Below are positions 1-13,523 of a DNA stretch of 64,000 bases, piece by piece. The DNA comes from Lachnospiraceae bacterium. Its GTDB lineage: Bacteria; Bacillota; Clostridia; Lachnospirales; Lachnospiraceae. Positions within the stretch are counted from its first letter, which is position 1, and every line of letters begins with the position of its first letter. The position numbers and the translations under genes were made by a program. Location: assembly GCA_017453065.1 (NCBI GenBank), contig JAFTKW010000005.1, positions 1 through 64,000 on the forward strand, written 5' to 3'. The notes under the pieces are model-generated. The model was given only the letters and a program-made list of their open reading frames with translations, ran no database searches and was not told where the DNA came from.

Positions 1-44
1 ATTAGTATAAATAACTGTTTTCTATCAAAGTTTTTCTTTTTCAT
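1..44 (-). CDS. 5' end of a gene leaving the left edge (unknown product)
   Basis: On the minus strand an ATG at 44-42 opens a frame that stays open to the window edge (14 codons, beginning MKKKNFDRK). It is preceded by AGGAG about 9 nt upstream, a good ribosome binding site. The lysine-rich start followed by LFIL could be the beginning of a signal peptide, but only 14 residues are visible. No function can be assigned. The start is supported by the ribosome binding site only. Confidence 0.45.
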   Translation of the reverse strand, partial: MKKKNFDRKQLFIL

Positions 45-70
45 GTTGTATCGCTCCTATGTTATTTACT

Positions 71-84
71 ACAATATGCATTGT
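71..84. promoter_or_regulatory. short inverted repeat upstream of the left-edge gene
   Basis: ACAAT-ATGC-ATTGT is a 5-bp inverted repeat placed 27-40 bp upstream of the minus-strand start at 44. Its position fits an operator or a promoter element for that gene. There is no further evidence, so this is a weak call. Confidence 0.25.
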
Positions 85-225
85 ATTTTATTTATGTAAT
101 CAATTGATAAATAAAAATCATTCTAGTGTGCATATCATATACGTAACTGATAATCACCTATTATCTATCAAAAAGAATTTTGGTGCATGTTTTTCAAAAA
201 TATAAAAATTTTATAGTTTCGAAAG

Positions 226-265
226 CGGCGGTGAAGGCAAGTGTTTTGTGGTTCACCGCCGTTTT
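226..265 (+). terminator. hairpin with T run, Rho-independent terminator candidate
   Basis: CGGCGGTGAA at 226-235 pairs perfectly with TTCACCGCCG at 252-261 and is followed by TTTT. It lies between the minus-strand gene at the left edge and the abiEi promoter, with no gene on either strand directly feeding it. It may insulate the toxin-antitoxin operon or be left over from a lost gene. Confidence 0.55.
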
Positions 266-288
266 AGCGATTAGTATTTTGAAAAGCG

Positions 289-327
289 CATAAAGTATTT
301 GAAAAAAGGAATACTTTATGATAAAAT
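289..327 (+). promoter_or_regulatory. abiEi promoter overlapped by inverted repeat 1
   Basis: TTGAAA (299-304) and TAAAAT (322-327) are separated by 17 bp and form a good sigma-A type promoter. CATAAAGTATT (289-299) and AATACTTTATG (310-320) form an 11-bp inverted repeat with a 10-bp spacer that covers the -35 box and the spacer. AbiEi antitoxins are known to bind inverted repeats in their own promoter and repress it. The layout here fits such autoregulation. Confidence 0.65.
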
Positions 328-349
328 TAAAATAGAAATTTTAAAAAAC

Positions 350-383
350 GCACAAAGTATTGGGAAAAGCAAATACTTTGTGC
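350..383 (+). promoter_or_regulatory. inverted repeat 2 upstream of abiEi
   Basis: GCACAAAGTATT (350-361) and AATACTTTGTGC (372-383) form a 12-bp inverted repeat with a 10-bp spacer. It repeats the core and spacer length of inverted repeat 1, about 62 bp away centre to centre. It lies in the leader between the promoter and the abiEi start. A paired site of this kind is expected for cooperative binding by the antitoxin. Confidence 0.65.
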
Positions 384-410
384 AAAAATCAAAATGAGAG
401 GCAATGTGAA

Positions 411-1175
411 ATGAAGCACTATGAAAATTTGCTGGAAAAGGGATATTTTACGAGAGAACAATTGATAGAAATTGTAGGAACAGCAGGGGCCGCAAATAGT
501 ATTATTTATGATTATCAGACGAAAGGTTTTATTGAAAAAGTAAAAAGAGATTTTTATGTGGTAATCAGCTTGGAGACAAAACAGCCGGTTCTCTCTCGCT
601 ATCAGATAGGCTCGAATTTGTTTGCTGATGCCTGTATCACGCATCATAGTGCCTTTGAGGTATATGGATACGGAAGTCAAGTTTTCTATGAATGTTTTGT
701 GGCAACTGATAAGAGATTTTCGGATTTCGAATATGATGGGGTAGTGTATCGCCGAGTAGAACGTAAGCCTGATATAGAGGTGACTCGGCAAGGAAATATG
801 TGTATTACATCTATGGAACAGACAGTGATGGATAGCATTCGGGATTTTGAAAAGATAGCAGGGTTGGAAGAAGTAATACGATGCATGATGTTGGTTCCGG
901 GATTGAATGAGCAGAAGGTTCTATCATGCCTTGCCAGAAATGATAACGGATTTTTGTATCAAAAGTGTGGATATATTTTCGAGGAACTGAACGAGGAATT
1001 TCATTTTTCGATTGAATTTTTTGCAGAGTGTGAGGCACATTCTTCGGATGCAAGAAAGTATTTGATGAAGGAATCACAGAATACTGTGTATTGTGAACGA
1101 TGGAAACTTTATGTGCCGCCATCATTAAAAGGACTAATAGATAAAGGGGTAGGGGATTATGATGCAATTGGATAG
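411..1175 (+). CDS. AbiEi-like antitoxin / transcriptional repressor
   Basis: The product has 254 residues if read from ATG 411, which is preceded by GAGAGG; an upstream in-frame start at 360 lies inside inverted repeat 2 and is less likely. The N-terminal third (KGYFTREQLIEIVG...IYDYQTKGFIEKVKRDFYVV) looks like the winged helix-turn-helix of type IV antitoxins of the AbiE family, followed by the AbiEi C-terminal region with the conserved SMEQTVMDSI stretch. In this family the antitoxin represses the operon and neutralises the AbiEii nucleotidyltransferase without stable binding. The gene overlaps the toxin gene by 17 bp and has two inverted repeats upstream. The partner is truncated, so it may now be an orphan antitoxin. 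Confidence 0.75.
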   Translation: MKHYENLLEKGYFTREQLIEIVGTAGAANSIIYDYQTKGFIEKVKRDFYVVISLETKQPVLSRYQIGSNLFADACITHHSAFEVYGYGSQVFYECFVATDKRFSDFEYDGVVYRRVERKPDIEVTRQGNMCITSMEQTVMDSIRDFEKIAGLEEVIRCMMLVPGLNEQKVLSCLARNDNGFLYQKCGYIFEELNEEFHFSIEFFAECEAHSSDARKYLMKESQNTVYCERWKLYVPPSLKGLIDKGVGDYDAIG

Positions 1176-1608
1176 ATTGACACTCGGTAGGGTGGCAAAA
1201 GAATTAGGCTTTGTAAGAGATACATTGGAGAAGGTTTGCCGTTTGGCGGATGTGCTTAAGTTTATGGAATCGGATGAACTTTTGTCAGAGGCGATTGCCC
1301 TAAAGGGCGGAACAGCTATCAATCTTACTATTTTTGATTTGCCGAGATTATCTGTGGATATTGATTTGGATTATTGCAGAAGTATTGATAGAGAGAAAAT
1401 GCTTGTAGACAGAGATATTATTACAGACAAAATTAGCAAGTATATGAATGCAAGCGGATATACGTTGAGCCCTAAATCAAAGAACTATCATGCTTTGGAT
1501 TCTTTCGTGTACGAATATATAAATTGTGGTGGAAAAGTGATAAGCATTAAAAAAGCAACAGCGAAAAACGGACTTCTCTATAGAAAAAAACGATTTAATA
1601 TGTTATAG
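1159..1608 (+). pseudogene. AbiEii-like nucleotidyltransferase toxin, truncated
   Basis: The 149-residue frame carries the nucleotidyltransferase signature of AbiEii/AbiGii toxins: KGGTAINL at about 49-56 and the metal-binding DIDLDY at about 67-72. Family members are usually near 280-300 residues. Here the similarity stops after the ...FVYEYINCGG stretch (about residue 122). The last 25 residues (basic, ending KKRFNML) do not look like the family, which normally continues into a conserved Ile/Lys/Glu-rich strand. The C-terminal half is therefore missing. The start at 1159 or 1162 overlaps abiEi by 17 bp, as expected for this operon. The break lies just before the cassette starting at 1654, which suggests that the cassette or a deletion replaced the rest of the toxin gene. 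Confidence 0.65.
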
Positions 1609-1653
1609 TACTTGATAGAAGGAAGAACATCAATTAGATAGGAAAAAACAAAT

Positions 1654-2103
1654 ATGGAAATTGAAATAACTACTATGTGCGCCGTTGTAAATGAAGGAAA
1701 AGTTCTTATGATTAATCGAAAGAGAAACTGGAAAGGGTGGGCTTTCTTAGGCGGGCATTTGGAAGCTGGAGAAAGTGTGGAGATGTGCGTAAAAAGAGAA
1801 ATATACGAGGAAGCAGGGATACAAATAAGAGCCCCACGGTTTGTAGGTATAACAAATATATATAACCCAGAATTATTAAAAAGGCATATTATATTTAACT
1901 ATGTGACAAGTTCATTTGAAGGATGCTTGAAAGAACAGTGTGAAGAGGGAGAGATAAGTTGGATAAATATTGATTCTATAGAAATGCAACAATTAGCAGA
2001 GGGAATGGAATATCGCTTGCCTCTTTTTTTTACCAATAAGTATTCTGAACTATATATAGAGTGGAAAGAAGACTGTGGATATACCAAAGTGGAATATATT
2101 TAA
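1654..2103 (+). CDS. NUDIX hydrolase
   Basis: This 149-residue protein has a complete Nudix box: G at the HLEAGE turn, then E, seven residues, and REIYEEAGI (roughly residues 33-54). NUDIX enzymes hydrolyse a nucleoside diphosphate linked to another group. The N-terminal part, with WKGWAFLGGHLEAGES, resembles the MutT/8-oxo-dGTP diphosphatase branch. It is the first gene of a six-gene run on the same strand, 18 bp before the next gene, and is preceded by AGGAAA. In this setting a housekeeping role is less likely than handling a nucleotide made or sensed by the cassette. That role is inference. Confidence 0.85.
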   Translation: MEIEITTMCAVVNEGKVLMINRKRNWKGWAFLGGHLEAGESVEMCVKREIYEEAGIQIRAPRFVGITNIYNPELLKRHIIFNYVTSSFEGCLKEQCEEGEISWINIDSIEMQQLAEGMEYRLPLFFTNKYSELYIEWKEDCGYTKVEYI

Positions 2104-2121
2104 GAAAATAGAGGTATAAAT

Positions 2122-4002
2122 ATGGGGAAGAATTATCGAAAAGAGCTTGATTCATTATCAGAAATTTATAGAAAGGCTATATGTTGTGATTGTGAAATAA
2201 TCTCAAATTTTATAAATAAATACTGCCAAAAGACTTTTCTGGCAATCGGTTCAGGTGGGTCTTTTTCTGTTGCTAAAATATTTGAGTATATGTGTACAAT
2301 TTCAGGCAGAATGAGTAAGAGTATTACTCCATTAGAATTAGGACATTATAGTGACCAATTAAAGCAGAACGTTGCGGTATTATTTACCGCAGGTGGGAGC
2401 AATAATGATTCTCGCAATGCTTATACATATGTAAGTAATTATGAGATGGAGGGGATTTTAACATGTTGTATGAAGCAGAATTCTCCAATCAAGAAAATGC
2501 AAAAAGAAAATTTGCATAATTATTTCTTTGAGTATCAGATGCCAGTTGCCAAAGATGGTTATTTGGCGGTAGAATCGATGATTTCCTTCTTGACTATATT
2601 GTCTAATGCCTTTTGGAAAGCAACAAGAAATTCTTTTTTCAAGATATCGGAGGATGACGATTGGTTAAATCGTAAGATAGATATAGATATACTGAACCGA
2701 GTCTTACAAAAGCAAAGTATCATTGTTTTACATGGTGGCATTACCACTCCGGCTGCTGTAGACTTGGAATCAAAATTTAGTGAAACTTCTTTGGGAAATA
2801 TTCAATTAGTGGATTTTCGTAATTTTGCACATGGACGTCACTTTTGGCTGAGTGATAGGGAGGATAGTACAGGGATTATAGCCTTAGTATCTTCCAAGGA
2901 ACAAAAAATAGCAAAGCAAACGTTACAAGTTGTACCAGAAAGTATTCCTATCTTTAGTGTGGATATTGATGATAGTACCATTATGGGACTTTTTGAAGCT
3001 TTTCATTTTATTTTCGAAATAGTATATCAAGCCGGAATGCTAAGGGGAATTGATCCAGGGAAACCTAAAGTGCCAGATTTTGGAAGAAAAATGTACCATA
3101 TAAATTATAGTATGGGTAATAAAAGAAACGATGTCGTTTTATGTGCCGCAGAGAGGAAAAAAGCTGTAGGCATGAATAGTTGTATGGCAGAATATTTCGA
3201 GCAAGGAAAAGAAAACTATAAAAGACTTAAAAGGAATAGCTTTCGTGGAATTATATTTGATTATGACGGGACATTGCATAATAAAGAAAAGTATACATCG
3301 ACAGAAAGTGCAATTTTTGACCGGATTAATGAATTCTTGGCAGCAGGTATTCAGATTGGCATAGCAACTGGCAGAGGACAATCCGTAAGAAGAGAATTGC
3401 AAAAAGTAATAGAAGAACAGTATTGGAAGGATGTAGTGATTGCGTATTATAATGGTGGATGCATTGGAACATTGGATGATAACATGCAACCAGATAAAAA
3501 GTCGAAAGGTTTTCCGATTGAATTTGAAGAAATTAAAGTTTTTTTGGAAACATCAATTCCAAAAGAAACACTAAAAGTGGATGGCATTAAGGACAGAAAT
3601 CCTTTTCAACTTACAATTATTAATGATAACGACGAAAGAGGAAAAGCTTGTTTAGAAGTAATCAAAGAATTTGTTAGACAAAAATCAACTGTAAAGATAT
3701 TAGAATCGAGTCATTCTATAGATATCATACCATTAAAGAGCAGCAAGAATAATATTTTTAGTTGGGGACTATGGAAGCAGTACAATGAAGATGACTTCTT
3801 GCGATTTGGTGATGCGGGGCACTTTGGCGGAAATGATTATGAATTATTGCAGAGTATTTATGGGATAAGTGTTGATAGTATATCAACATCGCCAAAGTAT
3901 TGTTGGAATTATGCAAAACAAGGGATGCGTAATTTAGAAGCAACCTTATATTATCTATCGGAAAGGCTTGAAATTACTCAGGATGGAATAAAGTGGAGAT
4001 AA
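2122..4002 (+). CDS. SIS-domain / HAD phosphatase fusion protein
   Basis: This 626-residue protein has two recognisable enzyme modules. Residues about 1-340 look like a double SIS (sugar isomerase) fold: IGSGGSFSVAK near 42-52 and TAGGSNNDS near 89-97 are typical phosphosugar-binding loops, and a second half begins near 198. Residues about 372-620 look like a Cof-type HAD phosphatase: nucleophile motif DYDGTL at 380-385, ATGRG near 415-419, and a GDAGHFGGNDYE acidic motif near 560-572. Such a fusion could bind or isomerise a phosphosugar and remove a phosphate. It is followed 3 bp later by the phosphoribosyltransferase-like gene. The fold calls come from motifs; the substrate is unknown. Confidence 0.75.
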   Translation: MGKNYRKELDSLSEIYRKAICCDCEIISNFINKYCQKTFLAIGSGGSFSVAKIFEYMCTISGRMSKSITPLELGHYSDQLKQNVAVLFTAGGSNNDSRNAYTYVSNYEMEGILTCCMKQNSPIKKMQKENLHNYFFEYQMPVAKDGYLAVESMISFLTILSNAFWKATRNSFFKISEDDDWLNRKIDIDILNRVLQKQSIIVLHGGITTPAAVDLESKFSETSLGNIQLVDFRNFAHGRHFWLSDREDSTGIIALVSSKEQKIAKQTLQVVPESIPIFSVDIDDSTIMGLFEAFHFIFEIVYQAGMLRGIDPGKPKVPDFGRKMYHINYSMGNKRNDVVLCAAERKKAVGMNSCMAEYFEQGKENYKRLKRNSFRGIIFDYDGTLHNKEKYTSTESAIFDRINEFLAAGIQIGIATGRGQSVRRELQKVIEEQYWKDVVIAYYNGGCIGTLDDNMQPDKKSKGFPIEFEEIKVFLETSIPKETLKVDGIKDRNPFQLTIINDNDERGKACLEVIKEFVRQKSTVKILESSHSIDIIPLKSSKNNIFSWGLWKQYNEDDFLRFGDAGHFGGNDYELLQSIYGISVDSISTSPKYCWNYAKQGMRNLEATLYYLSERLEITQDGIKWR

Positions 4003-4005
4003 AGC

Positions 4006-5121
4006 ATGAAAGATGAATTGGCGCAGGCAATACTAAAAGATGAGATGCATAATTGGAAAATCGTCGAAACCGTTTCAGAAATAAAAAATATACAGATTAT
4101 TTCAGAAATAAAATATGATGATTATCAGCAATATACCCAAGGAATGAGATATATTGAAAGTATTGCCTTGTGGTTACGTCAATTTGATACCCCAGAAGAA
4201 AAGCAATTAGCATATGAATTTGTAAAAAATCAGCTTATATACATATCAGAAGAAGAAATGCGTCAACTGGTGATGTATGTGTTCCCATTAAAAATGAAAA
4301 AATATCTCTTGGACAAGACAAGGAAATTTTGTGATAAAAAGGAGATAAAAAGTGTAGAAGAGCGTAAAGGTATATATAGCTATTTTCGTAGAAGTAGTCT
4401 TTTTTTGGGATTGAGTGATGGAGCGCATATGGATTTTTTTAGACGACAGAATCCGGAACTAAGCAATGAACAAGTATTTGTACATTACGATTTTTCACAA
4501 GCAAAGGCAGATGACATGCGCAAAGAATTCTGCGATGATGAACAAGTAAAAAAAATACAGAATAGCTATGCGGAGTTAGAAGGCAAAGATTTTAGTACCT
4601 TTTTCTTGATTGATGATTTTACTGGGAGCGGTAGAAGTTTTATTCGACGGGATGATAGTGGGTGGCACGGAAAAATTAACAAATTTATTGAGTTATTGGA
4701 AAGAGACAATTTTGATTATAAAAGTGCAGATATACATGTAATTCTGTATATATCAACCGAAAAATCTCTGGGATATATAAAAAAACAACTAGAAAGTTAT
4801 GTGGCAGAAAAAGAATTGCAAGCGATTACAGTTGAAGCAGTACAAATTGTAGAACCAATTGAATTAGAAGGACAAAAAGAGTTGCTGAAATTACTGGAAA
4901 GTAATTATCAAAAATATATAGATTTAGGTTATAAAAGTTATGAAGATAAACACTTTAAAAAAGGAGATGGGAAATATCCGTATCTTGGTTTTGCAGATTG
5001 CTCGTTACCTTTGATTTTATCACATAACACACCTAATAACTCGTTACCTGTATTATGGTATTCTTGGGGAGAGCAGGTAAATGCTTTATTTCCTAGAGTG
5101 ACGCGGCATAAGGAGATGTAG
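4006..5121 (+). CDS. phosphoribosyltransferase-like protein of a conflict-type cassette
   Basis: This 371-residue protein carries FFLIDDFTGSGRSF (about 199-212), which has the form of the PRPP-binding loop of type I phosphoribosyltransferases (hydrophobics, two acidic residues, then TGSG). Residues 1-190 are a helical N-terminal extension. The C-terminus carries a distinctive SHNTPNNSLPVLWY stretch at about 340-353. From memory, this last motif occurs in a PRTase family that is usually paired with an ORC/CDC6-like ATPase in predicted bacterial conflict systems. That match should be verified. The gene sits 3 bp after the SIS-HAD gene and 3 bp before the ATPase gene, so the products are probably made together. 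The base or acceptor is unknown. Confidence 0.7.
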   Translation: MKDELAQAILKDEMHNWKIVETVSEIKNIQIISEIKYDDYQQYTQGMRYIESIALWLRQFDTPEEKQLAYEFVKNQLIYISEEEMRQLVMYVFPLKMKKYLLDKTRKFCDKKEIKSVEERKGIYSYFRRSSLFLGLSDGAHMDFFRRQNPELSNEQVFVHYDFSQAKADDMRKEFCDDEQVKKIQNSYAELEGKDFSTFFLIDDFTGSGRSFIRRDDSGWHGKINKFIELLERDNFDYKSADIHVILYISTEKSLGYIKKQLESYVAEKELQAITVEAVQIVEPIELEGQKELLKLLESNYQKYIDLGYKSYEDKHFKKGDGKYPYLGFADCSLPLILSHNTPNNSLPVLWYSWGEQVNALFPRVTRHKEM

Positions 5122-5124
5122 AAG

Positions 5125-7026
5125 ATGGTTTGGAAAAATCCTTTTTTAGCAAAAAATACAGAACAGCAATCGGATTTTTTAACTTTATTTGAAAGTGCCG
5201 TATTGCAGATGATAGAAGATAAAAACTTTTCGGGTGTGAGTTATGTGTCCAGTACTCCAGGGGCGGGAAAAACCTCTTTGTTTCGGGCGTTTTCTAACGA
5301 TATATTAGGCAGAACTGCAGAAAAAGAACAGAAAGAAGATAACAAGGAATATTTTGATTATATGAAAAAACTGGGGGTTATTCGAAACGATAAAATACTA
5401 CTATTTAGTGGATATTTATCGTGCGCTCGTAGTTATAGTATAATAGAGGAGATGTTCCAAAATGGAAGACGTAAACAAGTTTTTTTTGCTTTGTTAAATT
5501 ATCGAATTGCAATATCTTTTATGCGTGGAATTGAGAAGGTGTTTGATTGGTCCTTGGAAGATTATGAAAAAGTTACATTTTTAAATTTACCGGAAGAAAT
5601 GGAAGCGGAATCAGAGTACTTTAAAAATGGAAGGACTGTATATGACTGGGCCTGTAACGGAGAACGAGAATTGTGCAGGTATTTAGATAGTGATAGATCT
5701 GAGAGAATAGCGCTTTCGTTTATTCATACTACACTTTTGATTTTGAAGTTATTTGAACCAAGTAATATCTTAATTAATGAAGAACAATATTTTGAAAAAT
5801 CGCTAATGATTTTTGATGATTTTCACAAATTGGCAGAAAACCAGAGAAGATATATGTCTGAAGCAGTGTTGACTCTAAAGACGAATACGGGTGTATGGTT
5901 TGGACAAAGATTAGAAGGCGTTGAGAGTGCACAAGTAATTTCAATGGATGGTAGTTTAGATAGAGATTATCATCTGAATATTGTAATAGATAATTATTGG
6001 GCAGAAAAATACGCAGCCTTTTATTCAATGATAGGGAGGATTGCAGATCGAAGAGTTAAAGAGGCACAAATAAATGCACTTTCAAATTTTTCGGATTGCA
6101 TTTCAGAAGAGATAGATTTAAAGGCTTATACTAAAAATTTGAAAAAGTTTTGTGCGGACATTTATGCGTATTTGGTAAATAATTTCGAAACAAAACTGAA
6201 ATATTCAGAGATATTGTCATACTTAAAAGAGAATGAGCAAATGAATGCTATGGAGAAAGCGGTTTGGTATGAATGTATTATGATAATGGAGCGAAGAGAA
6301 CAAAGCGGTCAACTTTCGTTTTTTCTTGGGGAGATAAAATCTTTGGAATCCTTTCGAAATTTTGTATCTTTGAATGAAAAAGGAGCTAGATTTTATGTGT
6401 GCCATAAATGTAAAATTCCGTTTTATTATGGAATAAGTAATTTACAGATACTTTCTTCTTGTAATGTCCAACAATTTCTTGTGTTTGCAGGTGCCTATTT
6501 TGACAGTTGTCGTATTAAGTCACTCGGGAATTATAAAAGACGGAAAAAAATTGCTTTATCGCCAGAAGAACAAATGGAAACAATAAGCAATATTGTGAAA
6601 CAACGCTGGGATGACATGGATTTTAGGTATTCAAATATTGAGACGATAAAACTGTTTTTAAATAATATTGGTAAATTAGGTCAAGATGCTAGAGATTTAG
6701 GTAAAAATTCTTATGAAGGAGGGGCATATACAGGAATTGCAATCAATAAGCAGGAATTGAAACAAAATTTGCACAATCCAGAGTATCAATTACTAATCGA
6801 AGTGCTGGGAGCGTGTATTTCTTCACGGTATTTGGAAAGAAGAGAAGGCAAAAAGAGCGGTGAAATAACGTTATATTTGAACAGATGGTTATGTGTTTAC
6901 TATGAGTTGCCATTGGCATATGGAGGTTTTAAACGTTGTACATTGAATAAACTTTTGAAAATGTGTCAACAGACGGATGTTGTGGAGGATGGACAACTGG
7001 AATTAAGTTTAGGGGGAAGAGAATAA
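5125..7026 (+). CDS. ORC/CDC6-like P-loop ATPase
   Basis: This 633-residue protein has a Walker A motif STPGAGKTS at 43-51 near the N-terminus and a Walker B-like LMIFDDFH at 227-234. An arginine-bearing WFGQRLE follows about 30 residues later, as expected for sensor elements of an AAA+/STAND-like fold. The remaining 350 residues are helical with no motif I recognise. They include one possible zinc-binding pair in VCHKCKIPF. In the cassette it would be the NTP-driven sensor or switch. It starts 3 bp after the PRTase gene with a GGAG site inside that gene's end, and its TAA overlaps the next ATG by 1 nt. Confidence 0.7.
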   Translation: MVWKNPFLAKNTEQQSDFLTLFESAVLQMIEDKNFSGVSYVSSTPGAGKTSLFRAFSNDILGRTAEKEQKEDNKEYFDYMKKLGVIRNDKILLFSGYLSCARSYSIIEEMFQNGRRKQVFFALLNYRIAISFMRGIEKVFDWSLEDYEKVTFLNLPEEMEAESEYFKNGRTVYDWACNGERELCRYLDSDRSERIALSFIHTTLLILKLFEPSNILINEEQYFEKSLMIFDDFHKLAENQRRYMSEAVLTLKTNTGVWFGQRLEGVESAQVISMDGSLDRDYHLNIVIDNYWAEKYAAFYSMIGRIADRRVKEAQINALSNFSDCISEEIDLKAYTKNLKKFCADIYAYLVNNFETKLKYSEILSYLKENEQMNAMEKAVWYECIMIMERREQSGQLSFFLGEIKSLESFRNFVSLNEKGARFYVCHKCKIPFYYGISNLQILSSCNVQQFLVFAGAYFDSCRIKSLGNYKRRKKIALSPEEQMETISNIVKQRWDDMDFRYSNIETIKLFLNNIGKLGQDARDLGKNSYEGGAYTGIAINKQELKQNLHNPEYQLLIEVLGACISSRYLERREGKKSGEITLYLNRWLCVYYELPLAYGGFKRCTLNKLLKMCQQTDVVEDGQLELSLGGRE

Positions 7027-8117
7027 TGTTTTCATTTGAAAATTGTCTTTTTATTGAAGGAGAAGATGAAATAAGAGCGCATTTCGAAGGTGAAAATGAG
7101 ACGTTATTAATTGCAGGAAAGGGATTTGATCCCCGCGCGACGAAAGGTTTAGAGTGTATTCAAAATGTTGTAAAACAATTGAGTGTCTGCATAATCGATT
7201 ATGAAGATAAGGGAATTAGAGAGAATAAACTACATGAGTCTCGTAGCGAAGAAAATATGAAGCGTATAGAGCAGATATGTAAGAATAAAAAATTGTTTTA
7301 TAGAAAAGTTCCGCAATATTCGAAACAGAATAGCTCGAAGGTCCTTGTTATCTCAGAAAGCGTGAGAGAAGCATTTAATGGTGAAAGTATTCAACAGTAT
7401 AAGAATATTATTATAGATATTAGTGCTATGCCTAGAGCAGTTGTATTTAGCTTGATAAAAAGAGTACTAAAAATTAAGAGTGAATGTCAAAAAGTATATA
7501 TTGTTGTTTGTGAGAATAGTGAATGGGATGAGAAAATCAATCCGGTGATAGTGGAAGAATCGGCAGAGTATTTGCAGGGTTTTAATACTTTTTCGATGTC
7601 TCAAGATAATTCAATTGAACAAACAATATGGATTCCGATGTTGGGGATGAATGAAGAGAATGCATTTCAAATTATTTATAATTTTTTGGATCCTGTAGAA
7701 ATATGTCCAGTAGTACCTTTTCCTTCAACGGATATTCACCGAGGAGAAGCTATTCTTCGATCATATGGTGAGGAATTGTTTAGAGTTCATAACATTGATA
7801 AAAGAAATATTATCTATGTGCCGGAAAATCATCCGGTACTTATTTATCAGAAGTTATATGATACTGTTCGCTATTATGAGAAAGCCTTAGCGAGAGAAGT
7901 ACATAGTGGGAATGGGTATAAGTATGCCTTTTCATCGCAATCAAGTAAATTGATTGATTTAGGAATGTTGCTTGCAATTTTATGTTTGGAGGAACAGTCG
8001 ATCAAAGTGGGTATAGTAGTTGTTGAGAATCAGGGATATTCTTCGAATGAAGAGTATTCTGAGAAGAATAACAAGATGTATTGTTTGTGTATAAATGATG
8101 AAATATTTGGTTGGTGA
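7026..8117 (+). CDS. unknown cassette protein, Rossmann-like
   Basis: This 363-residue protein belongs to no family I recognise with confidence. The start at 7026 is chosen because AGGGGGAAGA precedes it and the ATG overlaps the upstream stop (TAATG). Alternating hydrophobic strands and helices suggest an alpha/beta fold, perhaps in two halves. The first has LLIAGKGFDPRA (27-38) and IIIDISAMPRAVVFSL (128-143). The second has PFPSTDIHRG (231-240) and YVPENHPVLIYQKLYD (264-279). The DISAMPR loop after a hydrophobic strand could bind a nucleotide or phosphate. It is strictly embedded between the ATPase and kinase genes, so it should act with them. A ligand-sensor of CARF type is possible but not demonstrated. 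Confidence 0.6.
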   Translation: MFSFENCLFIEGEDEIRAHFEGENETLLIAGKGFDPRATKGLECIQNVVKQLSVCIIDYEDKGIRENKLHESRSEENMKRIEQICKNKKLFYRKVPQYSKQNSSKVLVISESVREAFNGESIQQYKNIIIDISAMPRAVVFSLIKRVLKIKSECQKVYIVVCENSEWDEKINPVIVEESAEYLQGFNTFSMSQDNSIEQTIWIPMLGMNEENAFQIIYNFLDPVEICPVVPFPSTDIHRGEAILRSYGEELFRVHNIDKRNIIYVPENHPVLIYQKLYDTVRYYEKALAREVHSGNGYKYAFSSQSSKLIDLGMLLAILCLEEQSIKVGIVVVENQGYSSNEEYSEKNNKMYCLCINDEIFGW

Positions 8118-8124
8118 GTGATAT

Positions 8125-9129
8125 ATGGAAACAATAAAAGTTTTAGGTGTAGGTTTTTCTTGTGTGGATATAGTAAAAATGATAGAACATTCATTTGTTA
8201 GTTTTGGTGGCACTACGGGTAATGTTATAACAATATTATCACAATTGGGTTATGAAACACGACTTTTGACGGCGGACTATTCTGGTGAACTTGGGGATTG
8301 GTATAAAAGGGCATTGGAAATAAGGAATATAACCCCTATATATTTTCAAAAAAGTAATAAGAGAATTTCAGTGGTTGTAGAAGAGGTTAACTCAACCAAT
8401 GGTACTCATTTTTTTAGAACGACATGTCCTCGTTGTGGAAATAGTTTGATTAATGTTATCTTGCCATCTGTAGAAAAAGTAGTGGGATTTAGGTCACAAA
8501 TGGAATATTGCAATTTACTATTTTTTGATCGTTTTTCGGCAGGAATAAATTTTTTGGCAAATGCAAACGTAGATGGGTGGAATGTTTATGAGCCGAATGC
8601 ATTTCGGATGTATGGGAATTTGTTAAACGGTTGTCGAGCAGCTGACATTATTAAGTTTTCTGCAGAAAGAATTCCGGACAGAGTTTGTAATCAATTACTT
8701 CTTGATTTAGAGAGTTCTATGCCCCAAATTGTTATAGTAACTATGGGGAAAGATGGTTTGAGATTTTGTGTAAAAAAGGATAAGGAGTGGGGCGCATGGA
8801 ATTATCTTTCAAGTAGGAGTAGTGAAAATGTGGTGGATACAGCTGGTGCGGGTGATTGGTTAACAGCTGGATTTCTCCATGGGCTATTGTCAGAATATCC
8901 AGTGAAGCAAAGGATCCCAGAGGAAAAAGTAATAGAAAAATTGCAAAGAGCGCAGACGTTGGCTACAGTAGCATGTAGCTATATGGGAGCACAAGGTATA
9001 TTGAAAGATTCGAATGGAATTGACCTTTTGAGAACAATTACAAAATGCAATTTTTGGAGAATTCAGGATTCAGATATCGACGATCAATTAAAGTGTTTAG
9101 TGTGTGGTAGTACGGGGATAGGAAAATGA
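8125..9129 (+). CDS. PfkB-family sugar/nucleoside kinase
   Basis: This 334-residue protein has the PfkB signature DTAGAGDWLTAGFL at 238-251, where the last Asp of GAGD is the family catalytic base. The N-terminus has FSCVDI and a GGTTGN glycine stretch at 28-33, as in ribokinase-type enzymes. Two unusual CxxC pairs occur, CPRCG at 101-105 and CLVCG at 324-328, which could bind one zinc together. It is the last gene of the cassette, 7 bp after the preceding stop. The family phosphorylates the hydroxyl of a sugar or nucleoside. Together with the PRTase, HAD and NUDIX genes it points to synthesis or turnover of a nucleotide-like compound. Confidence 0.8.
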   Translation: METIKVLGVGFSCVDIVKMIEHSFVSFGGTTGNVITILSQLGYETRLLTADYSGELGDWYKRALEIRNITPIYFQKSNKRISVVVEEVNSTNGTHFFRTTCPRCGNSLINVILPSVEKVVGFRSQMEYCNLLFFDRFSAGINFLANANVDGWNVYEPNAFRMYGNLLNGCRAADIIKFSAERIPDRVCNQLLLDLESSMPQIVIVTMGKDGLRFCVKKDKEWGAWNYLSSRSSENVVDTAGAGDWLTAGFLHGLLSEYPVKQRIPEEKVIEKLQRAQTLATVACSYMGAQGILKDSNGIDLLRTITKCNFWRIQDSDIDDQLKCLVCGSTGIGK

Positions 9130-9268
9130 TATTTTTGTACTTATAGTGAAAAGAGTATGTGGCAAGTACCAGGTTGATGAATTAAAATACTAGTTGTTTA
9201 TTCATTAAGTAAACTAAAATAGAATTTTGTAAAAGCGGAGTTAATAGATGAGGGAGGAGGATGATTTC

Positions 9269-9399
9269 TTGGACTGATTAACATGCTAATCCAAGACGTT
9301 TGCGATACTTGATTGGACTCAGATAATTAAGAGATTCCTCCGTATATTTGGCTCTTTTCTTTGGCATAAGTTGCTCCTTTCATTTCGAAATGAGTCCAA
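9269..9399 (-). mobile_element. internally deleted IS3-family element (MITE-like)
   Basis: The ends TTGGACTGATT (9269-9279) and, inverted, AATGAGTCCAA (9389-9399) match at 10 of 11 positions. Inside, on the minus strand, a 29-codon frame runs from ATG 9367 to TAA 9278 and has an AAAGGAG ribosome site. Its first ten or so residues (MPKKRAKYTEE) look like the start of an IS3-family OrfA transposase, and the rest (SLNYLSPIKYRKRLGL) like the extreme C-terminus of OrfB. The middle of the IS, about 1.2 kb, is therefore gone while both termini are kept. The element is non-autonomous but could be moved by an intact relative. Confidence 0.65.
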
Positions 9400-9859
9400 C
9401 TTTATGTCCGCACCTCATCGTGACCAAAAGTGTCCTTTTCATTCTCTTAACCAATATTCGGGTTTTAGGGGGCACCCTAAAGTGAACAGCCTAGCTGTTC
9501 AGCGGTACTGTCGCGTAAAGTTTATGCAACTTTAGGCGTATCCTGTTTATTTCGCAGTCCAATTACGTTGGACAAATTCCAAAGTTCGAGACTGTGGACA
9601 GAATGGCTGGAAACCTTGATTTTACTAGGTTTTTCAATCCAACGATTTTGAAATATGTCCAGTGGCGCCGGATTCCGGTCGGAGACGTTAATCAAGGCAG
9701 TCTCACTTTTTGAGACTCTTTTTCCAGAGGCTCTGGAATCATAGAAAGTGTCACTTGCAACAAGAGAATACACGCGAATATGTATGAATCAAAAGTCATC
9801 AGCAGAAATGTTGGTGACTTTTGCATTTCACTCTAAATTTTTTTGTCAGATTTTTTTCG
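9400..9859. other. non-coding, highly structured stretch upstream of the recombination module
   Basis: No gene with a ribosome binding site is evident. The stretch holds several perfect small hairpins: TTTAGGG/CCCTAAA at 9464-9481, GAACAGC/GCTGTTC at 9484-9500, GTCTCA/TGAGAC followed by a T-rich run near 9700-9724, CCAGAG/CTCTGG beside it, and AAAAGTCA/TGACTTTT further right near 9790-9822. An 83-codon minus-strand frame at 9773-9522 lies across it but has no convincing ribosome site. The structure density suggests a regulatory leader, an origin-like region or a transfer-related site of the integrative element. Confidence 0.4.
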
Positions 9860-9957
9860 TCAGCTTTTTTTGACTCCAAGTAATAACTGACAGGAGAAAA
9901 AGTTGAGGAAAATTTTATCAAATTTTTGCAATCAGCTTTTTTTGACCCTAAGTACTA
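9859..9957 (+). repeat. pair of 27-bp direct repeats before the orf-xis-int module
   Basis: Two copies of a sequence starting TCAGCTTTTTTTGAC and ending AAGTANTAA lie at about 9860-9886 and 9932-9958, 72 bp apart, with 3 mismatches between them. A shorter GTCAGATTTTTTT variant precedes the first copy. They lie immediately upstream of the first gene of the recombination module. Such spaced repeats often bind a DNA-binding protein of the element; here the ligand is unknown. Confidence 0.5.
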
Positions 9958-9977
9958 AGCAGAAGGAGGTAAAGAAA

Positions 9978-10517
9978 ATGCAAAAGCGATGGTTAGAACA
10001 TTTTTGTAAGTACAGACATATTTGTGAGTTCCTTGGCAATGAGGGCAAGGAGAAAGAGGAAATCAAAGAGTATCTGATACAGGAGTTGGGGCTGCCGGAG
10101 GCAACTGCCCGGTATCAGATGCAGAGGGCATTGGAGGATGAGGATGGAATCGTCAAAAGTTTCGGTTGGAAATTCTATTTGGACGAAGAGAAGTTCAAAG
10201 CGGTTATAGAGGATTTGCGTTCCATCTATCCTATCAGGTTAAAGCCTTATCCATATCCGCCCAAGGAGGAAACAGAGGCAAGGGATGGATTGATGGAGAT
10301 GAAACGGAAATGTGCAGCCCTTGAGCTGAAGTATGAGTTGCTCCGTTATCATTATTTAGAAACACAGGCATGGTATTATGATGCAAAGTCGGACTTGGCA
10401 GAGGCGCAAGGTAACGGAACGGAATCGTGTAGGTATTTCGATAAGATGGATGAACTGTTGGGACAGGCAATTAAGTTAAAACAGCAACTGGAAGAGAGAG
10501 GAGTGAAGGTGGATTGA
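9978..10517 (+). CDS. hypothetical protein of the integrative element
   Basis: The 179-residue product is read from ATG 9978, which has a perfect AGAAGGAGG site 9 nt upstream; longer starts upstream lie inside the direct repeat. The N-terminus contains a possible helix-turn-helix (EIKEYLIQELGLPEATARYQ), and the C-terminal half is strongly helical and charged, probably a coiled coil. It is not a family I recognise. Its TGA overlaps the excisionase ATG by one base, so the two are translationally linked. A DNA-binding role in control or replication of the element is plausible but unproven. Confidence 0.55.
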   Translation: MQKRWLEHFCKYRHICEFLGNEGKEKEEIKEYLIQELGLPEATARYQMQRALEDEDGIVKSFGWKFYLDEEKFKAVIEDLRSIYPIRLKPYPYPPKEETEARDGLMEMKRKCAALELKYELLRYHYLETQAWYYDAKSDLAEAQGNGTESCRYFDKMDELLGQAIKLKQQLEERGVKVD

Positions 10518-10705
10518 TGACGGATAAGATTGATAAAAAGGCATTACTCAATGTAAAAGAAATGTGTGAGTATTTGGGGATCGGTCAGACCAAGGCGAGA
10601 GAACTCCTTGCTGATCCGAAAAACAGTTTTACCGTCCGTATCGGTAACAGACTATATGCACACAAAGGAAGGCTGGATACATGGCTACTGAATCAAATTT
10701 TATAA
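10517..10705 (+). CDS. xis: excisionase (Tn916 Xis-like, MerR-type wHTH)
   Basis: This 62-residue protein reads ALLNVKEMCEYLGIGQTKAR..., followed by a short wing ending in GNRLYAHKGRLDTWL. That is the usual form of Xis proteins of Tn916-type elements and of small helix-turn-helix domains of the same superfamily. ATG 10517 overlaps the preceding stop (TGATG). Xis bends DNA at the element ends and steers the integrase toward excision. It lies 141 bp before the integrase start. Confidence 0.8.
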   Translation: MTDKIDKKALLNVKEMCEYLGIGQTKARELLADPKNSFTVRIGNRLYAHKGRLDTWLLNQIL

Positions 10706-10846
10706 GTGAAAAATGTGTCGTTTATGTATTTGCGATATATACCAAACGACACGCTGAAATGGTTGAAAAATTCAAGGTTTTATGGTAATATAGATGGGAT
10801 ATTTGATGTTTCCTTATCTAAGCTACAGCCTAGAAAGGAGGCACAA

Positions 10847-11986
10847 ATGGGGAAATCCCTTAATGGTAAAGAATTAGGAAAAGGAATTTCACAGAGGAAG
10901 GATGGTCTGTATCAGGCACGTTTCGTAAATCGCTTCGGTAAAAGAGAGACGATTTATGCGAAAACGTTGAACGAGATTCGACATCAATTAAGGACAGAGC
11001 AGTACGAAGACGAGAAGATGCTTAATGTCATAAGCAAGGAAATGACTCTGGATGAATGGTATGAGATTTGGATGAATACCTGTAAGAAGAATTGCAGAAG
11101 CTCTACAAAAGAGACGTATGCAGGTCATTACAGAAGAATCCAAAAGGAGCTAGGTTGGATAAAACTGACCAACCTAAATCTCATCGTATTACAGCAGGTG
11201 TTCAACGAACTTCGAAGTGACAATGAGCGTAAGAACTCTAAAAAGATTTTGGCAGATATGTTGGAGAAAGCCATTGATGCAGAATTGCTAATCAAGAACG
11301 TGGCGAAGCAAATCAACACCAAGGTTAGTAAAGAGGATAAAAAAGAGCGTCGTGTACTTACGGTTAAAGAAACGGAACTTTTTCTAAAGCAGGCAGAATC
11401 GAGTATTTATTACAATCTTTTTGTCGTAGCGTTAGAGACAGGACTTCGTATCGGAGAATTGATGGCATTGACTTGGTCAGATATAGACTTGAAAAAGAAA
11501 GTGTTGTATGTGCGGCATACATTGTGCTATTTTCGTAAGGATGGAAAATACACCTTTGAAATGCACGACACCAAGACGAAGAACGGTAGAAGAACGATTC
11601 CGCTTACACAAAAAGCCTATGAGGCTTTGCGGAAACAGAAGGTTCAGAAACTGGAAATCGAATTGAAAGGCAGAAAGGCTCCTGAAGGATACGAGGATTT
11701 AGTGTTTGTAACTAGGAATAACAGACCGATACAGCAGTTTATCGTACAGGAAGGAATCGAAGCCTGTGTTCGCAACATACAAAAACAACATCCGGAGTTT
11801 GAGAAGTTCTCACCACATTGTTTTCGCCACACTTTTGCTACAAGAGCAATTGAAAACGGAATGCAGCCAAAAACTTTGCAAAAGATATTAGGGCATGGTT
11901 CTTTGCAGATGACGATGGATTTGTATTGTCATGTGACAGATGATACCTTGTTCGAGGCGATGAGGTTGATGGAAAAGGCAGTGTGA
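10847..11986 (+). CDS. int: tyrosine recombinase / integrase
   Basis: The product has 379 residues from ATG 10847, chosen because AGAAAGGAGG precedes it; an earlier in-frame start would add 47 poorly conserved residues. An AP2-like arm-binding N-terminus (GISQRKDGLYQARFVNRFGKR) is followed by a SAM-like core-binding domain and the catalytic domain. Visible catalytic residues are the Arg of ETGLRIGELMAL, the HCFRHTF box (HxxR), the His of LGHGSLQMT, and the Tyr of MDLYCHV. All are intact, so the enzyme should be active. It is the last gene of the element, next to pyrE, the usual position for an integrase beside an attachment site. Confidence 0.92.
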   Translation: MGKSLNGKELGKGISQRKDGLYQARFVNRFGKRETIYAKTLNEIRHQLRTEQYEDEKMLNVISKEMTLDEWYEIWMNTCKKNCRSSTKETYAGHYRRIQKELGWIKLTNLNLIVLQQVFNELRSDNERKNSKKILADMLEKAIDAELLIKNVAKQINTKVSKEDKKERRVLTVKETELFLKQAESSIYYNLFVVALETGLRIGELMALTWSDIDLKKKVLYVRHTLCYFRKDGKYTFEMHDTKTKNGRRTIPLTQKAYEALRKQKVQKLEIELKGRKAPEGYEDLVFVTRNNRPIQQFIVQEGIEACVRNIQKQHPEFEKFSPHCFRHTFATRAIENGMQPKTLQKILGHGSLQMTMDLYCHVTDDTLFEAMRLMEKAV

Positions 11987-12214
11987 TGGCAGTACGAGCA
12001 TGCACCTCGAAAGCGAAGCTTTCTCGGTCACGGCTGTCGCCGTATATGTCTAAGCTTGAATATGTCCTTATGTGTGCGAGCACCCAACGGACAATTCAAT
12101 CTTATCCATGCATGGCTCGTAGCTAGCGTGAATGGTGTAAAAATGGTGTAGTAACACATTTTTTAGAAAAGAGAAAACGGCGAAAAGCCCGTAAATACAG
12201 GAGGTTTAAACAAT
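11987..12214. other. junction between the integrase and pyrE, likely attachment region
   Basis: There is no gene in these 228 bp. The perfect hairpin GAAAGC-GAA-GCTTTC lies at 12009-12023 and a CGGC/GCCG pair near 12031-12042. Two direct copies of AATGGTGTA stand at 12131-12139 and 12142-12150. The pyrE ribosome site AGGAGG is just before 12215. The right attachment site of the element should be here, but the matching left copy cannot be identified in the window. Confidence 0.4.
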
Positions 12215-12895
12215 ATGGAAGCTTACAAGCAGGAATTTATTGAGTTTATGATAGACAGCCAGGTGCTGAAATTTGGCGATTTTACTTTGAAGAGTGGACG
12301 TAAGAGCCCATTCTTTATGAATGCAGGTGGATATGTGACCGGTTCACAGCTTAAGAAACTTGGTGAATACTATGCCAAAGCAATTCACGACCAGTACGGA
12401 GATGATTTTGACGTGCTCTTTGGACCAGCCTACAAGGGTATTCCAATCAGCGTTGTGACAGCAATCGCTTTTAGCGAGTTGTACGGCAAAGAAATTCGTT
12501 ACTGCTCCGACCGCAAAGAAGAAAAAGACCATGGCGCAGACAAGGGAAGTTTCCTTGGAAGTAAGCTGAAAGATGGCGACAGAGTGGTAATGATTGAAGA
12601 CGTAACCACATCTGGCAAATCCATGGAAGAGACTGTTCCAAAGGTAAGAGGGGCAGCAGATGTAGAAATTATCGGTCTGATGGTTTCCTTGAACCGTATG
12701 GAAGTTGGCCTTGGCGGACAAAAGAGTGCTTTGGATGAAATCAAAGAAACCTATGGCTTTGATGCACATGCGATTGTAGATATGGCAGAGGTGACAGAGT
12801 ACCTCTACAACAGACCATACAAAGGACAGGTATACATCGACGATACTTTAAAAGCAGCTATAGATGCATACTATGAGCAGTATGGCGTGAAGTAA
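12215..12895 (+). CDS. pyrE: orotate phosphoribosyltransferase
   Basis: This 226-residue enzyme converts orotate and PRPP to orotidine 5'-monophosphate in UMP synthesis. The PRPP loop is VMIEDVTTSGKSMEE (about residues 127-141). The N-terminal KFGDFTLKSGRKSPFFMNAG and the catalytic-loop lysines in YCSDRKEEKDHG are typical. The start has AGGAGG 8 nt upstream. Other pyr genes are not adjacent: the integrative element ends directly upstream, so pyrE may have been separated from the rest of its operon. Confidence 0.95.
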   Translation: MEAYKQEFIEFMIDSQVLKFGDFTLKSGRKSPFFMNAGGYVTGSQLKKLGEYYAKAIHDQYGDDFDVLFGPAYKGIPISVVTAIAFSELYGKEIRYCSDRKEEKDHGADKGSFLGSKLKDGDRVVMIEDVTTSGKSMEETVPKVRGAADVEIIGLMVSLNRMEVGLGGQKSALDEIKETYGFDAHAIVDMAEVTEYLYNRPYKGQVYIDDTLKAAIDAYYEQYGVK

Positions 12896-12919
12896 TCTGC
12901 AAGATATAGGAGATTTGGT

Positions 12920-13069
12920 ATGGAAAGAGTTTTTAAAACTATGAGAGGGACTGGAGCCCTGAATATTGCATTGGGTGTAGTTGTATTGGTAGTTGGAGTT
13001 GCATCTGGAGTGTTGCTCATTATTGGTGGTGCAAAACTTTTAGGAGACAAATCCAAGATTCTGTTTTAA
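12920..13069 (+). CDS. small hydrophobic protein
   Basis: This 49-codon gene follows pyrE by 24 bp and has AGGAGA upstream of its ATG. The product is one long hydrophobic segment (residues about 14-40, ALNIALGVVVLVVGV...) with a basic N-terminus and a short charged tail. It should be a single-pass or hairpin membrane peptide. A terminator directly follows it, which supports it as a real final gene of the pyrE transcript. I do not recognise a family. Confidence 0.65.
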   Translation: MERVFKTMRGTGALNIALGVVVLVVGVASGVLLIIGGAKLLGDKSKILF

Positions 13070-13077
13070 ACAAAAGT

Positions 13078-13110
13078 GGGCACTGTGCGAAATGCACAGG
13101 TGCCCTTTTT
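13078..13110 (+). terminator. Rho-independent terminator
   Basis: GGGCAC-TGTGC and GCACA-GGTGCCC form a stem with a small bulge around a GAAAT loop, followed by TTTTT. It closes the pyrE transcript. Confidence 0.8.
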
Positions 13111-13193
13111 CCATTTCTAGCAGTCGTGCTAATAGAAATGAAAAGGGTAGATGTACACGCCAAATCAAGTGTCAATGTTGAGAGGATATAGGG

Positions 13194-13514
13194 ATGAAAC
13201 GTCATAAAGGGTATATATTTACAAACAGAAGACATTCACAAAAGGCAATTATGTCCACTATTTTGGGAGTGATTAGCACAGCATCCATGCTGGTGGTCAT
13301 ATACCTAAGCTTTTTGCTCAAAGGACAGGCACCTGCTTCCTACGGACTGACAGGCCTTCTGGCACTGGTCATGTCTTTCGTGGGATTGGTTTTAGGCATC
13401 AAGACAGTGCTGGAGCGAGAAAGATTCAAACTGTTTCCGATTTTGGGAATTGTGTTTAATTTAGCAGCCATTGCGATAGTGGCATTTATATTTTATTTGG
13501 GCGTATATGCCTAA
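13194..13514 (+). CDS. small multi-pass membrane protein (DUF6142-like)
   Basis: This 106-residue protein has a basic, His-rich N-terminus followed by three hydrophobic segments at about 20-43, 52-68 and 80-104. It resembles small uncharacterised membrane proteins of Lachnospiraceae (DUF6142 from memory). ATG 13194 has AGAGGATATAGGG upstream. It lies 9 bp before the aminopeptidase gene and is probably co-transcribed with it. No function is known. Confidence 0.7.
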   Translation: MKRHKGYIFTNRRHSQKAIMSTILGVISTASMLVVIYLSFLLKGQAPASYGLTGLLALVMSFVGLVLGIKTVLERERFKLFPILGIVFNLAAIAIVAFIFYLGVYA

Positions 13515-13523
13515 GGAGGAACT

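Follow-up and report, generated by a model that had tools for sequence, protein, structure and literature searches.

The PRTase-CE and ORC-CDC6-like families reportedly originate from Nicastro, Burroughs, Iyer and Aravind (Nucleic Acids Research (NAR) 2023), who are said to have predicted them as effector and ATPase of conflict systems, with PRTase-CE degrading nucleotides. The CARF6 family is said to go back to Makarova et al. (NAR 2020). Here we describe a gene cassette that unites members of these families with sugar-phosphate enzymes. It occupies positions 1654-9129 of the first 64,000 nucleotides of contig JAFTKW010000005.1 (Lachnospiraceae bacterium, assembly GCA_017453065.1); this whole stretch is called the window. 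An earlier sequence-only reading had reported six open reading frames (ORFs) on the plus strand, and their coordinates and gaps of 18, 3, 3, −1 and 7 bp were reproduced on recomputation. The six genes are:

1654-2103, +, NUDIX hydrolase (PF00293, E 4.7e-18), a branch-specific accessory gene
2122-4002, +, SIS-SIS-HAD fusion of the sugar module, N-terminal half phosphosugar isomerase-like and C-terminal half HAD-IIB sugar-phosphatase-like (PF08282 and profile-structure matches)
4006-5121, +, PRTase-CE with the phosphoribosyl pyrophosphate (PRPP) loop motif LIDDFTGSG (PF24390, E 1.2e-23), triad
5125-7026, +, P-loop ATPase of the ORC/CDC6-like family (relatives match PF24389), triad
7026-8117, +, tandem CARF-CARF sensor without effector domain (PADLOC CARF6, E 8e-69), triad
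8125-9129, +, PfkB-family kinase, fructokinase/ribose-phosphate-kinase-like (PF00294, E 2.1e-16), sugar module

The closest described systems share parts of this set. In type III CRISPR almost all sensors of cyclic oligoadenylates are said to be CARF or SAVED domains (available part of PMC12669027). Can1 (PDB 6sce) is a type III CRISPR DNA nuclease activated by cyclic oligoadenylate, whereas the cassette protein is CARF-only and Cas10 is mostly not over the cut-off in its hosts. The Chp CARF-HAD phosphatases demonstrate CARF-gated nucleotide depletion, according to the accessible portion of PMC12715507; they resemble the cassette in that a CARF sensor gates a nucleotide-lowering enzyme, an arrangement proposed for the cassette. 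Chp is a single polypeptide of type III-A CRISPR with HAD as effector, whereas the cassette has separate genes and a HAD fused to SIS. In Ter-type synthesis a PRTase plus HAD is likewise thought to yield a nucleoside-like signal (PMC7824862, as far as its text was available). In place of the Ter proteins the cassette has a CARF protein and an ORC-like ATPase; no Pfam match to TerB, TerD, TerC or TelA was found among the cassette ORFs, the flanks not having been searched for Ter families. In DprA-PRTase and retron systems a PRTase is again a putative sensor-switched effector. The former protects against T7 and lambda, and the retron PRTases are probable effectors (available part of PMC9122126). 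There the sensor is DprA or the retron and a sugar module is lacking, in contrast to the CARF protein, ATPase and sugar module of the cassette. A PRTase also appears, without specification of which one, among the validated systems in the accessible part of PMC13092281.

The families themselves are thus familiar. The cassette PRTase is the same PRTase-CE (PF24390), the adjoining ATPases of relatives are PF24389 members, and the PADLOC CARF6 models PDLC01910, PDLC01916 and PDLC01924 match cassette proteins with E values down to 4.6e-153, so these models were probably built with cassette proteins. The five-gene set as a whole was named in no paper found by our literature search, outside which its likeliest sources lie (the NAR 2020 CARF survey and NAR 2023), and the term PRTase-CE was likewise without result. 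The novelty claimed by the sequence-only reading therefore applies at most to the whole set, since PRTase-CE, ORC-CDC6-like and CARF6 were already catalogued. Measured here for the cassette are its two-module evolution, the NADAR loci without PfkB and the scarcity of Cas10. What sets the cassette apart is that its CARF receptor goes with enzymes of sugar phosphates in place of Cas10. A receptor of this kind, spread widely, accompanied by sugar-phosphate enzymes of its own and with no Cas10 palm over the cut-off in 43 of 50 hosts tested, would mean a second CARF signalling chemistry, and the two-module structure and closed five-gene set make the cassette directly testable.

A conserved five-gene core

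Relatives were collected by tblastn with the window PRTase, which matched 18 of 72,556 plasmid records (15 read), and by a genome scan from which the best 80 of 338 relatives were used; four further loci came from viral contigs. Profiles of the core proteins, seeded from 12 loci including the window, were run over 6,282 ORFs, and L001 (the window) and L022 (on the same contig as L002) were left out, giving 100 loci. The complete core of SIS-HAD, PRTase, ATPase, CARF and PfkB genes was present in 88 of them. Because the 12 seed loci supplied the profile seeds they match largely by construction (11 complete); among the others 77 of 88 were complete. In the 12 incomplete loci the sequence often ends early: L002, L033, L064, L071, L078, L083, L084 and L100 stop at most 131 bp from a core gene, and L091 stops 1,169 bp past one. 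In L009, L095 and L099, whose flanks exceed 5.9 kb, PfkB is absent and the gene order opens with NADAR, which may stand in for the kinase functionally. The order SIS-HAD, PRTase, ATPase, CARF, PfkB alone accounts for 60 loci. Median gaps are −4, −1, −2.5 and 4 bp in a set of 60 canonical-order loci (one intact copy per gene, NUDIX loci included). The proposal that the genes act as one unit is borne out by this core.

Reciprocal plasmid searches from a Sulfitobacter copy (limit 1e-15 for SIS-HAD, 1e-5 for CARF and PRTase) gave 18, 18 and 19 records, respectively, and 17 were common to all three, some with partial coverage. Unshared matches were a partial HAD in CP140871 and a CARF fragment in CP053441; CP121643 (L129) has a PRTase without other cassette genes in its annotated stretch, and L128 holds a Streptomyces PRTase. 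With the CARF protein as query, 3/297 and 2/298 genomes of two other orders were found, one source genome included in each; in all five loci the ATPase adjoins CARF, and PfkB does so too in 3/5 (about 1.5 kb of flank). That unrelated genes came together on a mobile element by chance, an explanation with practically no probability left, is refuted by the shared plasmid records and excluded by the conservation in 100 loci. Across genomes the genes keep together, and, as had been proposed, they do not form a standard metabolic operon. A fructosamine deglycation operon of the FrlB/FrlD type was rejected: the kinase reaches 34.9 bits against a cut-off of 247 for NF007321, and PRTase, ATPase and CARF are presumably foreign to such operons.

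The NUDIX gene is different. It occurs in 5 of the 100 loci, only in the window and L018-L021 and always in first position (profile from the window protein alone), so that, contrary to its earlier assignment as a cassette member, it is an add-on. NADAR is present in 23 of the 100. Both proteins further hit candidate models of PADLOC, PDC-S07 and PDC-M42C, and we regard these as generic enzyme matches. A small gene recurs next to NADAR in 10 of the 100 loci, including L010, L012, L016, L037, L049, L063, L087 and L089; it is annotated as a helix-turn-helix regulator in L010 and L016.

By record titles the loci belong to Bacillota, Bacteroidota, Pseudomonadota, Acidobacteriota, Planctomycetota and others, with two archaeal records of metagenome-assembled genomes (MAGs), one of which (L046, 3.17 Mb) is titled as a chromosome. 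Intact copies occur in isolates, e.g. Chitinophaga cymbidii (L026) and Sphingorhabdus sp. EL138 (L042). The distribution is sparse: the PRTase was found in 2 of 392 genomes of the order, the own genome included, and in none of the 10 other genomes of the same genus listed, which supports an accessory nature. The 18 PLSDB plasmid records comprise 8 conjugative, 9 non-mobilizable and 1 mobilizable plasmids, and L005, L076 and L077 have conjugation genes in their surroundings. L012 and L025 are apparently broken copies. No near match was found in E. coli genomes.

Two modules and their proteins

The cassette consists of two modules, a triad of PRTase, ATPase and CARF protein and a sugar module of SIS-HAD and PfkB. 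In the 79 loci where each gene is present as a single intact copy, pairwise-distance correlations were 0.92-0.96 within the triad, 0.88 between SIS-HAD and PfkB, and 0.65-0.72 across modules; none of 999 permutations reached any value, and the correlations still include shared phylogeny. The pattern persisted in the 60 canonical-order loci (0.91-0.96, 0.85 and 0.72-0.76) and in 68 non-redundant loci (0.90-0.96, 0.85 and 0.61-0.69), while in 19 rearranged loci all correlations were high (0.98-1.00 within modules, 0.84-0.94 across). Transcription of the two modules diverges in L037, L089 and L092. L003 and L010 have two triads beside a single sugar module. Identity between the paired triads is 36-37% for PRTase, 24% for ATPase and 28% for CARF (the latter in L010 only), too little for recent duplicates; in L010 one PRTase, the second, is divided between two ORFs. 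Since a second, divergent triad adjoins one sugar module, these loci suggest that both triads read one shared ligand.

Wherever a residue of the five core proteins is conserved to 95% or more across the 79 loci, the window among them, the window copy has it too. The Nudix, HAD, PRPP-loop and PfkB proteins named earlier each have a Pfam match. In the SIS-HAD chain HAD is directly recognizable (PF08282, E 3.8e-10), whereas SIS became visible only once 42 relatives were combined in a profile, which matched double-SIS structures (E 5.1e-07, profile positions 20-323; 8eol/3hba) and HAD phosphatases (4qjb/1ymq/1s2o); the fusion thus stands. Its residues conserved to at least 95% are D380, D382, K542, G563, D564, N571 and D572, and those of the PRTase are D203, D204, F205, G209, H340, N341, P343, N344 and N345. 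By pattern, 77 of 79 loci have a PRPP loop of the DDF..(x)SG type. For the window ATPase a Pfam search up to E 1 yielded no ATPase match; the protein aligns with relatives of which 5/5 scanned match the ORC-CDC6-like family PF24389 (E 5.7e-15 to 2.1e-27), in keeping with the reading of an ORC/CDC6-like P-loop ATPase next to the PRTase. Conserved residues are G46, G48, K49, D231 and R280. Sequence searches of solved structures gave nothing for the PRTase profile, the CARF profile or the single SIS-HAD protein, and no convincing match for the ATPase profile.

The fifth protein, first described as unknown, is a CARF protein by its CARF6 match and its structure model. In a structural comparison of the model the first 24 rows are all CARF or SAVED proteins, and its 363 residues are fully covered by two CARF halves with no fused effector domain found. 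As modelled, the protein is of CARF Rossmann fold; by our reading of the secondary structure the two Rossmann halves span about residues 25-165 and 198-355, while PADLOC labels the family CARF_CARF_CARF. The CARF-type ligand motif is D-x-[ST] with a basic residue. A DIS(A/S)(M/L)PR motif is present in at least 54 of 79 loci, and D131, S133 and K308 are at least 95% conserved; for the second half our motif pattern matched just 20 of 79. Membership in the CARF effector class of type III CRISPR was rejected, there being no match to a profile of four Cas10 candidates in the ORFs of the loci and no effector domain fused to CARF.

Of 42 PfkB relatives, 38 match the fructokinase model at E 1e-5 and 35 a ribose-1-phosphate kinase model; the window copy scores far under the curated cut-offs of both. 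Residues 101-104 of the kinase (window 8425-8436) form a zinc-knuckle-like CPRC motif, and the pattern C[PA]xC occurs in 40 of 79 relatives.

Proposed mechanism and rival explanations

We favour, though tentatively, the explanation that the cassette is a conflict or stress system of two modules gated by a messenger. SIS-HAD and PfkB, joined by NUDIX in some Clostridia or by NADAR elsewhere, would make, interconvert and clear a small phosphosugar- or nucleotide-type compound. The tandem CARF protein would bind this compound, the ORC/CDC6-like ATPase would act as an ATP-driven switch and probable invader sensor, and the enzymatic response would come from PRTase-CE, with the N-glycosidic bond of nucleotides in the cell as its target and pyrophosphate/PRPP chemistry as its means. 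As nucleotides run down, growth or phage replication would halt. The assignment of enzymes to compounds made or broken, the sensed compound, the PRTase direction, the ATPase role and defence itself are what we infer from the observed gene set, conserved catalytic motifs, CARF fold and two modules.

That the CARF ligand is local to the cassette is inferred from the scarcity of Cas10 in the hosts, with the SIS-HAD/PfkB module as its likeliest usual source. In 50 hosts tested, out of those of the 79 genome loci, the Cas10 palm family was over the cut-off in 7 and not in 43; such counts may be too high because the palm model also matches the E. coli control, and absence from hosts is unproved because many are incomplete MAGs. 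These figures also bear on a very improbable alternative, a type III CRISPR accessory whose ATPase and PRTase are turned on once the tandem CARF protein has bound, in trans, the cyclic oligoadenylate that Cas10 makes. The fold match to Can1, the name PRTase_III-A of some PADLOC PRTase models and the seven positive hosts fit it. The 43 others speak against it, as do the window's genome with no palm over the cut-off, the placement of the palm on another contig or 2.1 Mb from the cassette in 4/4 hosts compared (G396, G418, G431 and G440), and the lack of any match when a profile of four Cas10 candidates was run against the ORFs of the loci.

Further readings differ in which way the PRTase reaction would run. 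On a Streptomyces plasmid (L128:7944-8915, NZ_CP109092.1) a PRTase-CE homologue (PF24390, E 1.8e-11) keeps the LIDDFSGTG and HNTPN core. It adjoins an inositol-monophosphatase-family gene, with glucose-6-phosphate isomerase three genes on, in a stretch with PEP-mutase-family, HMGL-type (homocitrate-synthase-like) synthase, aconitase, isocitrate dehydrogenase-like and dioxygenase genes, which judged by gene content is a probable phosphonate biosynthesis pathway. Our confidence in the favoured explanation is limited because this cluster leaves a synthetic role of the PRTase open. In one unlikely alternative PRTase-CE would be the messenger synthase, starting from PRPP, while SIS-HAD/PfkB shape the sugar phosphate, NADAR or NUDIX destroy the messenger, CARF senses it and the ATPase responds. 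The phosphatase-family and isomerase neighbours of the Streptomyces gene parallel the SIS plus phosphatase of the cassette, NADAR, an N-glycosidase family, is frequent in the loci, and Ter offers the precedent of PRTase plus HAD described above. However, PRTase distances track those of ATPase and CARF (0.92-0.93) above those of the sugar enzymes (0.66-0.69), the second triad carries its own PRTase, and no obvious effector would be left. A possible but doubtful variant is a CARF second-messenger system without cyclase or polymerase, in which a phosphosugar- or PRPP-derived messenger from SIS-HAD/PfkB, possibly also PRTase-CE, lets the tandem CARF protein drive the ORC-like ATPase. If true, it would mean a new CARF ligand class and a new immune-messenger synthesis in bacteria and probably archaea. 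A non-immune operon for nucleotide/sugar damage control or secondary metabolism under a CARF metabolite sensor has about the same low probability as the synthase scheme. It accords with several genes being metabolic enzymes, flanks without an excess of defence families, the phylum-congruent tree and the phosphonate-cluster homologue; it is at odds with the sparse distribution, the plasmid sites, the broken copies, and the CARF, ORC-like and PRTase-CE families, which we take to be otherwise catalogued in conflict systems.

Returning to the messenger-gated conflict system, we consider a defence function fairly probable because of the component families, rarity, plasmid sites, conjugation setting and apparently broken copies. 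Several results weigh against it or against the favoured explanation as a whole. The cassette tree largely tracks phyla (15 changes, minimum 12), making the cassette less mobile than many defence systems (FastTree with long-branch warnings; labels cover 65 of the 79 rows and none of the plasmid rows). No match was found among 50,697 phage records; four IMG/VR (putative viral) contigs carry the cassette. A defence-island test, which took 140 ORFs from the flanks and 140 control ORFs of the same genomes at 15 paired loci (PADLOC, E 1e-10), counted families matched, not member ORFs, and gave 70 in the flanks versus 93 in the controls, i.e. no excess. Named families among the matches listed were BREX genes, LmuA and a dGTPase model match in the flanks and type IIG enzymes, PD-T4-6 and others in the controls; a Pfam tally of the flanks only gave TrwC relaxase and recombinase in 2/140 each. 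Phage defence, the setting suggested earlier, thus stays a candidate function only. Cas10-palm matches at E up to 0.001 rise to 11 of 50 hosts, and the window's genome (84.7% complete) has one below the cut-off. The Streptomyces homologue, lying in a probable phosphonate cluster, suggests that the PRTase-CE family can be biosynthetic, and the CARF protein is without effector domain and its ligand is proposed only.

Surroundings in the window

Because the window starts at contig base 1 (C43; assembly 2.73 Mb), only 1.65 kb upstream of the cassette is in view and the left part of the surrounding element lies outside it. Scans for tRNA genes in 1-14000 found none, and promoter and terminator scans were close to the shuffle mean. 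Three neighbouring genes stand out:

360-1175, +, AbiEi-like neighbour, outside the system (PADLOC AbiEi, E 7.1e-92)
1159-1608, +, truncated AbiEii-like gene, outside the system (PADLOC AbiEii, profile 1-128 of 306)
10706-11986, +, Tn916-type tyrosine integrase of the surrounding element (PF00589, E 1.4e-31; PF02920, E 2.1e-07)

The toxin-antitoxin pair reported beside the cassette is present as far as AbiEi is concerned; its AbiEii partner is short, and AbiE looks incidental. The AbiEii-like gene encodes 149 residues and ends 45 bp before the cassette, and since this toxin gene is truncated the pair is probably not functional. AbiE was rejected as a system component, since a blastp search of the other loci's ORFs at E 1e-3 gave no match. 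The integrase and the A+T-rich composition, both noted in the sequence-only reading, were found as described: the cassette has 33.9% G+C, compared with 42.8% at 12-64 kb, where windows of 7,476 bp range from 41.0 to 45.4%.

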